Positions 31,693 to 64,000 of a stretch of DNA of 64,000 nt are shown here, piece after piece. The DNA is taken from contig JAHBVL010000001.1 of the NCBI GenBank assembly GCA_019637585.1, positions 620,001 through 684,000 of the forward strand, read 5' to 3'. Both the position numbers and the translations under genes were made by a program. The notes under the pieces were generated by a model. It was not told the DNA's origin, searched no databases, and worked only from the letters and a program-made list of their open reading frames with translations. How positions within the stretch are numbered: the stretch's first letter is position 1; each line of letters begins with the position of its first letter. The stretch comes from Thermomicrobiales bacterium. GTDB taxonomy: Bacteria > Chloroflexota > Chloroflexia > Thermomicrobiales > UBA6265.

Positions 31693-34467
31693 TTGAGTAT
31701 GAAGATCATACGCCGGAGCCGCAGCGCGGCTCCCTTGATGCATATCCTGGTTCTTGGGGCCATCTTCCTGGCGATAACGGCAAATCTGGCCCCAGTTGCC
31801 GGCGGCGACGTTCGTGCCGAATCGACCGCCGATGCGCTGACCGAAGCCGTTTCCGAAACACTGACTGAGGGCGAACCAGAAATCGCCGCGACCACCGGGC
31901 TGGACATTCAGGCCACGGGCGGACCGGCTTACGTGACGGTCCACACCTACCTCTGCGATGGCAGTGGGGATTGGGCCGGTCAGTCCTACACGACGCTGCG
32001 GGACAGCTGCGCGTCGGTGCAGGATGTCGCGTTCACGTTGACCAGTACCGCGCCGGATGGCGCAGTCACCCTCGATGAAACCGCCGTGTCCGATGGCGAT
32101 GGCCTCGCATTCTGGTCTGTCGACGCTCCGAGCATGGCAACGATCGCCGAGCTATTGCCTCCTGGATATGGCGACCCGATGGTCTTTTGCGGTTTGGCCA
32201 CCGGTATGAACCTCTCCCAGACGGGTTCGGCGGGCGGCATTGTCTCTCTCGCGCTGGCGTTCGATGAGCAGTACTACTGCGACTGGTTCAACGTCATGGG
32301 CACTGGAGCCGCAGGGGAGGGCGAGGATGAAGGCGAAGAACGATCGGTGTCGATCCTCAAGCTGATCTGCCTCCCGGAGAGCGGGCAACAGACCCTCCTG
32401 ACGAACGCTCAATCCGGTACCTCCAACCTGGGTCCACGCCAGGGGGATCCCAATGATCCGTCAGGCGACATGCTCTGTACCGAGTTCGAAACCGAAATCG
32501 GATCCGGGTTCACCTTCGACGCAACAGTCGACGGTCAGCCGCTCGAGTCGAAAACGACCGACGACACCGGCTACGCGGGCTGGACTGGCATGCCAGAGGG
32601 AGAGATGGTCATCAGCGAACAGATTCCGGATGGCTATGGCACCCCCTATTTCTATTGCCATGGCGGGCGGGCGCCGATTGTCAATGGATTCACCAATTCA
32701 GCAACTCTGCCGATCATCGGGAAGACCCGGATCGAATGCGTGGTGGTGAATGTTCCGGAAACGGAGGGTGGTTACGCCGACGTCGTGATCTACAAGTGGG
32801 TCTGCGAAACCTACCCGGATCCCGTAGTCGTCAAGATCCCGTCCGAGCTCGAAAGCGAAGGCTGCTTCCTCGTGGAAGGCGTCGATTTCGACATCACCTA
32901 CGGCGAACCGGACGAAATGGTGACGGGCACCACCGACGGTACAGGAACGGTCGAGTGGGGCGGTATCGCGGCCGGAGACATCGCCATCGAGGAGCGGGTG
33001 CCGCCCGGGTACGGTGAGCCGGTCATCTATTGCGAGAGCGAACTGCCGACGGGATCGGGGCAGTCTCCGGAGCACGATCCGGTCTATGGCGCTGCGCTGA
33101 CGGCCATGCTCTCCGACGGCGAGGTGCTGGTCTGCCACTGGATCAATGTGCCGAGCGACGATGCTTCCATCATCATCTACAAGTACACCTGTCCGGACGG
33201 GTATGACCTCTGGGCGGATGGCGCAGATCCGGTTTACGAATGCGCCGAACTGACCGATGGTGTCGAGTTCACCATTCGCGGTGATGCGATCGATGAAATC
33301 TCGGTGACGGGATCGGCCGGGACTGGCGCGGTCGCCTGGAACGATCTGGCACCGGGTGGATACGCCATCGAGGAAACGCCGCCGCCCGGCAATGCCAGCG
33401 CGTTCGTGCTCTCCTGCGAGGGCGGAACCGTGCCAATGATCCAGAATGTGCCGCTCTCCACTGGCTACGATCTGTGGATCGAAGCGATGCCGGGCGATCA
33501 CATCGTTTGCTACTGGTACAACGTTCCCGAGCCCGACTGGGGCTCCGTGACGGTGATCAAATACGCCTGCGCGACCGAGCACTTTGTCAATTCTCACGAC
33601 TGCCAGATCTATGAAGACGGTGTGCAATTCCAGCTCTTCCACTGGACCGGTTCGCAGGCAAGCGTGACCGGGTCGGGCGTCACCAACAGCGCCGGGGTCG
33701 TGACCTTCGGTGGGCTCGAGGCAGGGTGGTATGAGCTGGATGAGATCGGGGCTGAATGGTGTTACGCGGAAGCCAGCCGCTCGACCAGCGAGGGATATCT
33801 CGACGTTCTGGCAGGGAAGAAAACGACGGTCTGGGTCTACAACTGCGGTGTCGACATTCCAAAGAAGCCAGTGGTCACATACCCGAACACCGGGGTGGGG
33901 CCGAGCGCAGCAGTGGTGATGCCCTCGGCAGCACCGGTAAGTGAACAGGGAGCGCATCTGGCGCTCCCGCACAACCGGATCGCCGGGATTCTGGACAGCC
34001 GCATCGCGCTCAGCATGGCCGGTGGATCGCGACCGGCGGCGATTTCCATCGACTCGATCGGGCTCTCAGCGGAAATCGAAGTGCTGGAGATCGTCGATGG
34101 CGCGTTCCAGGAACCCACCTCTGCGGACAGGGTCGCCTGGTACAAGGAAACCGGCCGCCCGGGGATGGTGGGAAACATGATCCTCGCCGGTCATCTCAAC
34201 TACTGGGGTGATCCGGAAGGGGTCTTCTTCGCGCTCGATCAGGTGCAGGAGGGCGAGCTTGTCGAGATCGTCGATCCTCTGGGAGGCACTCATCAGTACA
34301 AAGTGACGGCGGTCGAACTCCTCGATGCGACGAGCGATACGCTGCAAGCGATTGCCGCGGACAGCGATGCATCGACCCTGACGCTGATCACCTGTGGCGG
34401 TCAATGGGACGGAGGGTCTCAGACCTATCTGCAGCGAACGGTCGTGAAAGCTGAGCTTGTCAGGTAG
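31693..34467 (+). CDS. Secreted SpaA-like multidomain protein fused to a C-terminal sortase
   Basis: A 924-residue exported protein. TTG at 31693 or ATG at 31699 can start it. A signal sequence spans about residues 10-45. Five SpaA/prealbumin-like domains follow (about 79-195, 218-355, 362-487, 492-612, 617-718). Each begins with a strand ending in Cys (IYKWVC, IYKYTC, VIKYAC), has a second Cys before the next strand, a GYxEPxxP-type turn, and most end C-x-W-x-NVP. Then comes YPNTG at 730-734, resembling a sorting motif. Residues ~755-924 are a sortase domain with catalytic H834 (AGHLNYWG), C901 (LITC) and R915. It is probably a class E/F type enzyme acting outside the membrane. No hydrophobic anchor follows YPNTG. 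Confidence 0.88.
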   Translation: MSMKIIRRSRSAAPLMHILVLGAIFLAITANLAPVAGGDVRAESTADALTEAVSETLTEGEPEIAATTGLDIQATGGPAYVTVHTYLCDGSGDWAGQSYTTLRDSCASVQDVAFTLTSTAPDGAVTLDETAVSDGDGLAFWSVDAPSMATIAELLPPGYGDPMVFCGLATGMNLSQTGSAGGIVSLALAFDEQYYCDWFNVMGTGAAGEGEDEGEERSVSILKLICLPESGQQTLLTNAQSGTSNLGPRQGDPNDPSGDMLCTEFETEIGSGFTFDATVDGQPLESKTTDDTGYAGWTGMPEGEMVISEQIPDGYGTPYFYCHGGRAPIVNGFTNSATLPIIGKTRIECVVVNVPETEGGYADVVIYKWVCETYPDPVVVKIPSELESEGCFLVEGVDFDITYGEPDEMVTGTTDGTGTVEWGGIAAGDIAIEERVPPGYGEPVIYCESELPTGSGQSPEHDPVYGAALTAMLSDGEVLVCHWINVPSDDASIIIYKYTCPDGYDLWADGADPVYECAELTDGVEFTIRGDAIDEISVTGSAGTGAVAWNDLAPGGYAIEETPPPGNASAFVLSCEGGTVPMIQNVPLSTGYDLWIEAMPGDHIVCYWYNVPEPDWGSVTVIKYACATEHFVNSHDCQIYEDGVQFQLFHWTGSQASVTGSGVTNSAGVVTFGGLEAGWYELDEIGAEWCYAEASRSTSEGYLDVLAGKKTTVWVYNCGVDIPKKPVVTYPNTGVGPSAAVVMPSAAPVSEQGAHLALPHNRIAGILDSRIALSMAGGSRPAAISIDSIGLSAEIEVLEIVDGAFQEPTSADRVAWYKETGRPGMVGNMILAGHLNYWGDPEGVFFALDQVQEGELVEIVDPLGGTHQYKVTAVELLDATSDTLQAIAADSDASTLTLITCGGQWDGGSQTYLQRTVVKAELVR

Positions 34468-35234: not shown

Positions 35235-35541
35235 TTGTGGATCCTTTCGGCTAGAACGGGCAGTTCGACAGTTTGGTTTTGACTACCGTAGTGGGAGCAC
35301 TGTCATGATGCTGTGCTCTGCGACACACTCCGGCGGCATATCTATTCCCCACCCTTGAAGTGGGATGCAGTGACTCGGGTCTTCCGGCAGAGCGCCGGAG
35401 CCTACGTCTTTGGCACAGCAGCCGGTGGTCAGAACGATCCCGTCCCATCCGTGATAGAGTGACTTCGGTTTACAGACTCATCTTGATACTTGCGCAGTGC
35501 CCGGATTGCTTCGACATTCCTTGGTGGGAGGGCTCTGGTTC
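35235..35541. other. Intergenic region with one REP
   Basis: A 307-base gap. A reverse-oriented GTAG-headed REP lies at 35382-35404 (GCCGG arms, ending CTAC). The rest holds no gene that I can support; GGGAGGG at 35526-35532 is the ribosome site of the next gene. Confidence 0.65.
35382..35404 (-). repeat. GTAG-headed REP palindrome
   Basis: TTCCGGC-AGAGC-GCCGGAG followed by CCTAC; same sub-type as the copies at 20542 and 20752. Confidence 0.8.
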
Positions 35542-36975
35542 ATGGATGGCAATCGATTCGACAACGCCATTCGCGCGCTTGGCGGTGGACTGAGCCGGCG
35601 TCAGGTCATTCGGGCGTTGCTGGGTGGCGGCGCCGGCGCAGTTGCTGGTGGGCTGGCGATCTCTCGTGAAGCGCGGGCACAGGCTGGTCCTGGCGAGTCA
35701 TGCACTGTCGACACCGACTGCGCTGTTTCGACGCTCGGTCCATGCTGCGGGGCGGTTTGCGAGCAAGGAATCTGCCGGCAATTCTCCGACGACGCCAAGT
35801 GCAGCGGCGAGGGCGAATGCTTTTCCTGCAATGGCAACAATGGAACGTGCGAGTACTCCTGCGGTTCCGATGAGATCTGCTGCGACGGTCGGTGCGTCGA
35901 AACCGAGTGCTGCACGGATATCGATTGCCAGGAAGGGTTCATCTCTCTCGGGTGCTTCAACTCCATCTGCATTGCTGGTTCGTGCGAAACCGTCATCGAC
36001 AACGGGAAATGCACGGGAGAGAAGTGTTGCTGTGTCGACGACGGAACGTGTTCCGCTGAGTGTTGTGGGAGCTGCAGAGGCGCGGGAGAATCGTGCGGCA
36101 ATCCCCTTATCGCGGACGAGAGCCAGCAGCTGGAGTGCTGCGATGGACTGGTCTGTTGTGGAGATGGCGACGATCGAGTCTGCGGTCAATGCTGTGGCGA
36201 TGAGGATTGCGGCTACTCGCCTTGCGCGCGCGTCACATGCAACGCGGAGACCCATGTCTGCGGCGCCGTTTCCCTTTGCCCGCCGGTGGCGCCGGGAACC
36301 TATCAGTGCTGCGCGGTTGGTCCAGGAGAGGACTATTGTTACGGTACCGCCGCGATCGCCGAGTTCGACTGTTGCTCAGATGAAGATTGCTGGGACCAGG
36401 TGGCGCCACAGTCGTGTCAGTTCGGCTACTGCCGGAACGGACTTTGTGAGATCGAGCTGGACGATTCCGTCTGCCCCGATGGCCAATGTTGTTGTGACAA
36501 TGGCTCCTGCCATGAAAACTGCTGCGAACCGTCATCGTGTGAGGATGACCACGATTGCCGCAAGGGGTCGATCTGCTGCGCCGGAAATTGCCGGGAGATC
36601 GAGTGCTGCATCGACGATGTCCTGACCGGCGGCAACCCGAACGACCGCTGCCCCGGCAAGTGCACCTGTTTCGAGGGGTTGTGCGTCGATAAGCACCAGA
36701 ACCACTGCGATGTTTGTCACTCGGACAAGGAATGCGGCAAGGGCGAATGTTGTTGCAAGGATGGCAGCTGCTCGCACAAATGTTGTGGTTGGTCGGGTAG
36801 ACCGAGCAAGACGACGTCGCCGCCGGTGCAGATCGACACGTTGCCGAATACGGGGTCAGGCCCCGGTCAGGTCAGCACGCCCTTGATTGCCGGCGCGGCG
36901 CTCGCAGCCGGCGCCGCGGCTTTGCTGGCCGCGCAGCAGATGCGTGAGGACGAGTCTCAGGAGCGCGGTGCGTAG
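35542..36975 (+). CDS. Tat-exported, cysteine-rich LPNTG wall-anchored protein
   Basis: A 477-residue protein, start ATG 35542 with GGGAGGG 9 bases upstream. Residues ~17-47 are a twin-arginine signal (LSRRQVIRALLGGGAGAVAGG). The mature part has about 77 cysteines by my count in ~380 residues, with CC and CCC clusters; a motif CCC-x2/3-G-(S/T)-C-x3-CC occurs three times. The C-terminus has LPNTGSGPG, a ~20-residue hydrophobic helix and a short charged tail, a classical sortase sorting signal. It resembles knottin-like disulfide-rich domains. The Tat route may allow cofactor loading or folding before export. The sortase fusion 1.1 kb upstream is the likely anchoring enzyme. Confidence 0.87.
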   Translation: MDGNRFDNAIRALGGGLSRRQVIRALLGGGAGAVAGGLAISREARAQAGPGESCTVDTDCAVSTLGPCCGAVCEQGICRQFSDDAKCSGEGECFSCNGNNGTCEYSCGSDEICCDGRCVETECCTDIDCQEGFISLGCFNSICIAGSCETVIDNGKCTGEKCCCVDDGTCSAECCGSCRGAGESCGNPLIADESQQLECCDGLVCCGDGDDRVCGQCCGDEDCGYSPCARVTCNAETHVCGAVSLCPPVAPGTYQCCAVGPGEDYCYGTAAIAEFDCCSDEDCWDQVAPQSCQFGYCRNGLCEIELDDSVCPDGQCCCDNGSCHENCCEPSSCEDDHDCRKGSICCAGNCREIECCIDDVLTGGNPNDRCPGKCTCFEGLCVDKHQNHCDVCHSDKECGKGECCCKDGSCSHKCCGWSGRPSKTTSPPVQIDTLPNTGSGPGQVSTPLIAGAALAAGAAALLAAQQMREDESQERGA

Positions 36976-62444: not shown

Positions 62445-64000
62445 CTAGTGCATCCATCGCCGCCGGGTCGTCGCCGCACCCAGACCGAACAGCACCATCG
62501 ACCCGGCTAGTAGGAAGAGCGCGTTGCCATTCGACGTGGTTCCCGTTCCGGTGTTTGGCAGCGTGTTCACCTCCACACCACCGGGCTTCTGTGGCTTGTG
62601 CGGTTTGTGTGGCTTCTTGGTGACGTAGTTCCAGACGGTGATCTCCGTCATTTCATTTTCGTTCACCCAGAAATCCTCAGTCGCGCCGGTATCGACTTCG
62701 ACGATGGTGTGCGGACCCGTGACGTCATTCGTTACCGGCAGGGTGATCCATGCCACTCCGTCCTTGCCTGTGCGGAACGGAATAACAGACTCGTCATCAC
62801 CATAGACCCAGATTTCGAAGTCTGCCTTGCCGAGCCGGCAGTCGTGAGCATGACCGCCACCCTCGCCTCCGGCAGGCGAAATCGGGTAGTCGACCTCGAT
62901 AACGGTCCCCCGTTCCTTGGCCAGGCAGTAGTACTTGGTGACTTCCACCTGTCCGGAGATATAGACATAGTTAGTCACGTAGAGATACGACATCTGGGCC
63001 GCGACGATCGTGAATCCGTAGACCGTGCTGTCGCCAATTTCCTGGATGGTGTAGTCGCCAACGGGAAGGTCCGTCAGGTAAAGGTAGCCGCCTTCGGTCG
63101 TCGAGTAGGTGCCGATGACGGAGCCATTGTGCGAGATGGTGAAACTGGCCGGGCCCACGAAGCAGTTGGCATCATAGGAAAACTCGGACGAATAGTGGAC
63201 ACGCGCATCGTCCGGATTGGCAACGCGGCAGAAGCGCTTCACGAGCGTGAAATCGCCAGTCACCTGCCTGAACAGCACCGACCAGTCACCGGTGCCAGTG
63301 CCGATTGGATCGGTCAGGTTGCCATTCTGGAAGTGGAACACACTGTCGCCAGTCAGCACGAAGTTGGTTGGCGGGCTGACCAGCTGGATACGAATCGACT
63401 GGTTCGGAACAGTGAGCACCACGCTGCCGCCGCTGGTTCCGACATTGGTCAGACCCGGGAAAACCGACGCGTCGATCGCGTTGCCGGCGCTATCCAGGAT
63501 GGTGTAGACGGCGCCATCCATCGCCACATTGGAGCCGGTCGTCGCGTCGAAGCTGCGCAGTGTGAACTGCCGCGACTCGCGCGCAAAGAGCACTGACCAA
63601 TCCGACGCGCTGGTCGCCGAGGTCATGCTGTTGGTCTGGAAGTGGAAAACGCTGTCCCCGGTGAGCGTGAAGTAGGTTGGGGAACTGACGAGCTGAATGC
63701 GAATGGGCGCATCCGGGACGGTCAGCACTGTGCTGCCGCCGGTCGTGGTGACGTTCGTCAACCCAGGGAAATTCGTGGGATCGATGGCGTTCCCGTTCGC
63801 ATCCAGGATGTTGTAGACGGCGCCATCCATTGGCACGTTCGGCGACGTCGTCGCATTGAATGTGCGGAGGGTGAACTGTCGAGTTGGGATCGGCTCGAAG
63901 ACAACCGACCAGCTCGCACCGGTGATATTTGACAGTGTGTTGTTGTTCTGGAAATGGAACACACTATCGCCGGAGAGCTGATGCGCCGCTGGAGGACTGA
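62445..64000 (-). CDS. LPNTG wall-anchored repeat protein with SpaA-like domains (5' end outside window)
   Basis: The frame is open through the right edge, so the N-terminus is missing; 517 residues are visible. Near-identical ~103-residue repeats, each with LTGDSVFHFQ and MDGAVYNILD-type segments, follow each other (repeat starts 309 and 312 bases apart). Then come two Cys-containing SpaA-like domains: VKRFC...NCFVGPASFTI with LPVGDYTIQEIG, and TKYYC...HDCRLGKADFEIWV. The C-terminus has LPNTGTGTT, a hydrophobic helix (ALFLLAGSMVLFGLGAA) and RRRW, a sortase sorting signal. It is a likely adhesin or surface-layer component; only the fused sortase at 31693 is visible as an anchoring enzyme. Confidence 0.85.
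   Translation of the reverse strand, partial: SPPAAHQLSGDSVFHFQNNNTLSNITGASWSVVFEPIPTRQFTLRTFNATTSPNVPMDGAVYNILDANGNAIDPTNFPGLTNVTTTGGSTVLTVPDAPIRIQLVSSPTYFTLTGDSVFHFQTNSMTSATSASDWSVLFARESRQFTLRSFDATTGSNVAMDGAVYTILDSAGNAIDASVFPGLTNVGTSGGSVVLTVPNQSIRIQLVSPPTNFVLTGDSVFHFQNGNLTDPIGTGTGDWSVLFRQVTGDFTLVKRFCRVANPDDARVHYSSEFSYDANCFVGPASFTISHNGSVIGTYSTTEGGYLYLTDLPVGDYTIQEIGDSTVYGFTIVAAQMSYLYVTNYVYISGQVEVTKYYCLAKERGTVIEVDYPISPAGGEGGGHAHDCRLGKADFEIWVYGDDESVIPFRTGKDGVAWITLPVTNDVTGPHTIVEVDTGATEDFWVNENEMTEITVWNYVTKKPHKPHKPQKPGGVEVNTLPNTGTGTTSNGNALFLLAGSMVLFGLGAATTRRRWMH

Follow-up and report, generated by a model that had tools for sequence, protein, structure and literature searches.

Within the window, by which we mean the whole 64,000-nucleotide stretch of Thermomicrobiales DNA that was analyzed, one gene encodes a protein in which five SpaA-like domains, a YPNTG pentapeptide resembling a sorting motif, and a sortase domain follow one another in a single chain. 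That this single-chain architecture is real we regard as almost certain, and there is, in our judgment, about an even chance that the protein is a natural fusion of a SpaA/CnaB surface protein to a class-F-like sortase that would work as one self-processing unit. A sortase and its substrate are normally separate gene products, and specificity is guessed from gene neighborhoods; fusions such as this one point directly to the likely substrate of a sortase.

The gene forms one 924-amino acid reading frame with zero internal stops (Table 1). A sequence-only reading of this DNA had described the same one-chain combination, and the uninterrupted frame together with matches to the SpaA and Sortase families in Pfam bears it out. 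By hydropathy, the sole transmembrane-like or strongly hydrophobic segment lies at the N terminus. The hydrophobic anchor that the same reading had found missing after YPNTG is indeed absent, and a search of the other reading frames of the linker revealed no hidden anchor.

Table 1. Positions of the window gene and its parts, and records of related and comparable fusions. Positions in the first ten rows that give them are those of the window.
Feature	Record	Genome	Positions	Strand	Basis or remark
Whole fusion gene, 924 aa	window	G000	31693..34467	+	TTG start; alternative ATG two codons on, 31699
N-terminal signal	window	G000	31741..31818	+	Hydropathy; hydrophobic core, residues 18-36
Possible signal cleavage after VRA, residue 42	window	G000			Suggested by the sequence, not tool-predicted
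SpaA-like domain 1, ~78-206	window	G000	31924..32310	+	Leave-one-out HMM, 2.1e-9
SpaA-like domain 2, ~217-356	window	G000	32341..32760	+	Pfam SpaA_4; candidate isopeptide residues K223/E309/N353
SpaA-like domain 3, ~361-487	window	G000	32773..33153	+	Leave-one-out HMM; candidate K368/E433 or E434/N485
SpaA-like domain 4, ~491-615	window	G000	33163..33537	+	Leave-one-out HMM; candidate K497/E560 or E561/N610
SpaA-like domain 5, ~617-724	window	G000	33541..33864	+	Pfam 643-691, alignment, predicted beta domain; candidate K623/E684/N717; bears the motif
YPNTG sorting-motif-like pentapeptide, 730-734	window	G000	33880..33894	+	Kept in 10/10 fusions
Linker, ~47 residues (735-781)	window	G000	33895..34035	+	Disordered, without hydrophobic segment
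Sortase domain (782-924), H834, C901, R915	window	G000	34036..34464	+	Class F is nearest named class
Homologous fusions	window, L053	G000
Homologous fusion	L036/L164	G035
Homologous fusion	L037/L161	G039
Homologous fusion	L038	G048
Homologous fusion	L039	G052
Homologous fusion	L040	G057
Homologous fusion	L165/L240	G059
Homologous fusion	L076/L242	G047
Homologous fusion	L137/L241	G060			Sortase split by frame change
DUF11 repeats-LPNTS-TM-Arg-TM-sortase	L261		1465-4887	+	One frame
DUF11 repeats-LPNTS-TM-Arg-TM-sortase	L262		922-5670	+	One frame
DUF11 repeats, degenerate motif, TM-Arg-TM-sortase, one frame	L263		37-3156	-
Seven CarboxypepD_reg repeats-LPNTG-LPNTG-soluble linker-sortase	L260		2-3637	+
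DUF4012 stalk-sortase	L264		2934-5540	-	No PxTG motif; Chloroflexota
Stalk-sortase	L265		3186-5633	+	No PxTG motif; Chloroflexota
DUF4012 stalk-sortase	L266		2992-5763	+	No PxTG motif; Chloroflexota

The C-terminal domain matches the Pfam Sortase family (PF04203) at residues 784-923 with an E-value of 6e-20 and a score of 71.7 bits against a cut-off of 26.6. The catalytic residues H834 (in AGHLN), C901 (in TLITCGG), and R915 (in QRTVV) stand at the positions given in the sequence-only reading, and their columns are invariant across eight aligned fusion sortases. Among named sortase classes, class F (NCBIfam NF033748) scores best, at 85 bits (E-value 4e-24), a value below the curated cut-off of 166. 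The predicted fold agrees with the sequence that this domain is a sortase: its model superimposes on SrtA of L. rhamnosus (7cfj) with a VIA Z of 16.6 and an rmsd of 1.9 over 127 residues, and also matches structures of SrtE, SrtC, and SrtF. The domain is a putative transpeptidase.

The upstream part of the chain scores above the cut-offs of two SpaA-type families (PF17802, 56.5 bits; PF24514, 44.9 bits), with Pfam SpaA (PF17802) matching three stretches, the best at 643-691, and SpaA_4 matching 272-354. Domains 1 to 4 support one another, as judged by leave-one-out HMMs with values of 2e-9 to 8e-18 against shuffles. Domain 5 is unsupported by this measure (5e-4, with 1 of 200 shuffles scoring better), and the full count of five claimed earlier is upheld by the best Pfam SpaA stretch, by alignment with seven homologous domains, and by a confidently predicted beta domain, all three in domain 5. 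Each SpaA-like domain contains four cysteines. Lys, Glu, and Asn positions are expected for isopeptide bonds of the CnaB type; these positions line up in domains 2 to 5, and in domain 1, Thr85 replaces the lysine. Lys-Asn bonds with a catalytic Glu are candidates in domains 2 to 5.

The YPNTG pentapeptide, which carries Y where LPxTG has L, lies exactly where it had first been placed, at residues 730-734. It is kept in all 10 homologous fusions described below: Y, P, T, G, and the proline that follows are identical in every one and the N in 9. The linker surrounding it is hardly conserved among the same proteins, which argues that the motif is not there by chance. When held against the features of an LPxTG sorting signal, the window protein and a second fusion from its genome have the xPxTG motif, and the hydrophobic segment and basic tail are absent from both. 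An AlphaFold2 model of residues 619-924, built from 61 sequences, has a mean pLDDT of 84; values mostly exceed 90 in domain 5 and the sortase and mostly fall below 50 in YPNTG and the linker. Whether YPNTG could reach C901 had been put forward as a question for structure prediction: the tether is disordered, and the model has no feature holding the motif away from C901, although it does not itself show binding.

Our searches covered the order, the class, and 84,980 species at one genome per species, and they identified ten distinct fusions of this kind in nine genomes, all belonging to one Thermomicrobiales family. A look for SpaA-sortase fusions in related genomes had been proposed, and the ten include a second one in the window genome itself (L053, G000:C28), a 1749-amino acid protein in which SpaA repeats and KYPNTGVGP precede a sortase; in all, this genome has five sortase genes, comprising the two fusions and three stand-alone enzymes. 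Some of the fusion records, L076 among them, end at a contig edge. Across the family, 29 members match the last SpaA domain, and most of these carry unfused SpaA proteins only. The second SpaA protein of G047 (L242, 2082-5697, minus strand) ends in YPNTGVPPGARDDNRFQP followed by a stop codon; no anchor and no sortase follow its motif.

The fusion genome records originate from several independent projects. A frameshift or an assembly error joining two genes, raised at the outset as a possible refutation, was rejected on the strength of intact long frames in independent assemblies across the nine genomes and of reading-frame checks. We consider a frameshift, a chimeric assembly, or a decaying gene very improbable: a frame change does split the sortase of one relative (L241 in G060), but two of the intact long frames lie in the window genome, the catalytic residues are intact, and GC3 is even throughout the window frame (0.60-0.81).

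The relatives also suggest how the fusion came about. In 8 of the 10, a hydrophobic stretch and an Arg cluster come after YPNTG and complete the sorting signal, and a second signal of the Tat or Sec type then precedes the sortase; both fusions of the window genome are without this membrane hairpin and run from SpaA through YPNTG and linker directly to sortase. The second signals are of the twin-arginine type in L161 (SRRQFL), L165 (SRRRFL), L040 (TRRRML), L137 (SRRTFL), and L038 (SRRRFA), with the arginines of the sorting-signal tail doubling as the twin arginines in L165, L040, L161, and L137; in L039 and L164, the second segment is Sec-like. A sorting signal followed by a second signal peptide ahead of the sortase points to two fused genes, one for a substrate and one for a sortase; most simply, the substrate gene would have become joined in frame to a sortase gene lying downstream of it. 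The sequence-only reading had been right about the combination in one chain and about the sortase, but it had not seen this origin. Unfused genes of the same family, in L079, L083, and L243, have an LPxTG-TM gene ~80-210 bases before the sortase frame, and their sortases sit on another branch than the fusion sortases. In L243 (4165-5127, plus strand), and also in L079 and L083, a bacterial SH3 domain follows the sortase (Pfam SH3_3 in L243).

From these comparisons, the window copy appears to have lost its membrane hairpin. Set by eye against the hairpin-bearing L040, L053 aligns with it before the gap (YPNTGVGP...) and after it (...TPDAS...C....CIRGAIP), the pattern that in-frame loss of a hairpin should leave. 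A single clade of the window copy and L053 is not rejected (AU p 0.31), compatible with one or two losses. In a 56-row tree, the fusion sortases form one group with support of 99/99, with the unfused L080 inside it, and the window sortase has a long branch.

Fusions of other kinds occur elsewhere in the phylum. Long frames around such sortases were sought in 400 Chloroflexota genomes, so that the fusion counts are lower bounds, and at least two further types emerged, one with DUF11 and one with CarboxypepD_reg repeats. Within the latter, L260 has two LPNTG copies 16 residues apart and no hydrophobic hairpin, in a frame that runs off the contig start; by its sequence it has the hairpin-less layout of the window protein, and its origin is independent. 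A single origin of all sortase-substrate fusions in the phylum was rejected (one-clade AU p = 1.6e-45), and substrate-sortase gene fusion arose at least three times in Chloroflexota. A separate frame in a Saccharibacteria MAG (L234, 5014-6432, plus strand) joins EamA transporter domains to a sortase.

If the protein processes itself, which was among the possibilities first listed and is our leading mechanism, the N-terminal signal would export the whole chain, and C901 would then attack YPNTG between Thr and Gly, either within its own chain or in a neighboring copy, leaving the SpaA half bound as an acyl-enzyme. An amino group, on an envelope component or on a Lys in another SpaA chain, would next receive the SpaA half, and the sortase half would come away with an N-terminal Gly. 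Relatives that retain the hairpin would carry out this chemistry at the membrane; there, Sec would export the SpaA part, and the internal Tat or Sec signal would direct export of the sortase part. We tentatively suggest, as a possible extension, a single-use ligase, in which each molecule would cut itself, weld its SpaA part to either the envelope or a further SpaA chain, and then shed its enzyme; such an arrangement would have had at least three separate origins in Chloroflexota. It weighs against self-processing that a hairpin-less chain would have no obvious means of retention at the surface if its signal peptide is cleaved.

The main rival account, less likely than self-processing but still live, corresponds to the tethered sortase first proposed; it would have the N-terminal signal serve as a membrane anchor and the five SpaA domains as a rigid stalk carrying the sortase outward, where it would act on other LPxTG proteins, YPNTG being a relic of an ancestral sorting signal. 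Motif-free fusions do occur, both DUF4012-sortase (L264-L266) and CarboxypepD_reg-sortase (L213/L268), and such stalk-sortase proteins (L264-L266, L268) imply that fusion alone does not require self-processing. This account is also consistent with the separate, fully anchored LPNTG and LPATG proteins that the window genome encodes, two of them within the window, and with the absence of the hairpin from both fusions of that genome. Yet YPNTG and its flanking proline are kept in both of these hairpin-less copies, where the rest of the linker has diverged, and the independent L260 keeps two intact LPNTG copies without a hairpin. The survival of the motif as the linker changed moderately favors its continued use.

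The motif could also be used in trans, whereby a stand-alone sortase, of which the window genome has three, would cut YPNTG, attach the SpaA part, and free the fused sortase as a separate enzyme. This we consider improbable: with no hydrophobic segment to retain it, the substrate would not linger at the membrane until a second sortase arrived, and the nearest sortase is always the fused one.

Joining of the enzyme to other LPNTG proteins had also been raised at first, and proteins of that kind are encoded near the gene and elsewhere in the genome. Downstream on the same strand (35497-36975) lies a Cys-rich protein with a Tat-like N terminus and a tail of LPNTG, hydrophobic segment, and charged residues, a candidate sortase substrate, and near the window end (62445-63962, minus strand) is a SpaA-domain protein with a complete LPNTG anchor. 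Elsewhere in the genome, a 3729-residue frame contains more than 30 SpaA repeats (L256, G000:C15:11999-21934). The stand-alone sortases L002/L054 and L004/L055, and ~39 others of the family, share a near-invariant box, G[ED]xP[ST]xG..xRPGP, often with MPTTG or VPSTG, ~25 residues before the sortase domain and just after the signal peptide. This box resembles a sorting motif, one within the enzyme itself, and may serve as a pseudo-substrate or as a site of self-cleavage; in the AlphaFold2 model of one stand-alone sortase, the segment with the xPxTG-like box has low confidence (~63-70). We found no relatives of one stand-alone sortase from the window genome on viral contigs.

Surface assembly in this phylum has hardly been studied, and the fusions bear on an F-like sortase class whose role is described as unknown. 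Living lineages with separate genes, with fused genes and a hairpin, and with fused genes and no hairpin suggest a route by which an enzyme may absorb its substrate. If self-processing is true, the protein would be a natural counterpart of engineered self-cleaving sortase tags, with YPNTG-type specificity; if the single-use ligase reading is true, surface assembly would need no separate sortase. A search of the open-licence literature found no paper on natural fusions of a sortase to its substrate, or on the sortases of Thermomicrobia, which is weak evidence of novelty.

Among known systems, class F sortases (NF033748), for which the physiological role is described as unknown (PMC13251363), resemble the window domain in class score and His-Cys-Arg residues; the window domain differs from them in being the C-terminal part of a 924-amino acid protein instead of a stand-alone enzyme. 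With SpaA/CnaB pilins bearing LPxTG signals, the protein shares repeated prealbumin-like domains (Pfam SpaA, SpaA_4), the Lys/Glu/Asn positions in 4 of its 5 domains, and a pentapeptide after the last domain, but a sortase follows the motif in place of a hydrophobic segment and basic tail. As for a pilin motif lysine, neither a YPK nor a V.V.PK string occurs anywhere in the window protein. It is established that some membrane proteins use Sec for one part and Tat for another (PMC5449189), and several of the hairpin-bearing relatives appear to be like them in having an internal twin-arginine signal after Sec-inserted segments, a topology that we infer for these relatives; the window protein differs in having no internal signal. 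In the Streptomyces Rieske protein, the twin arginines must be preceded by a loop some eight residues long (PMC5449189), whereas in L040, L137, L161, and L165 the arginines come almost directly after the hydrophobic stretch. Because several fusions thus seem to be without a loop of the Rieske type, the export route of the relatives is uncertain. A parallel to the proposed reaction lies in engineered proteins that, like the window protein, hold a sortase and an LPxTG motif in one chain and that work by self-cleavage (BISOP, PMC2901362; surface display, PMC10726597). One-chain sortase-LPETG proteins of this kind cleave themselves, 20 to 40 percent already during synthesis (PMC2901362), in the order sortase-LPETG-target, as against substrate-YPNTG-sortase in the window protein.
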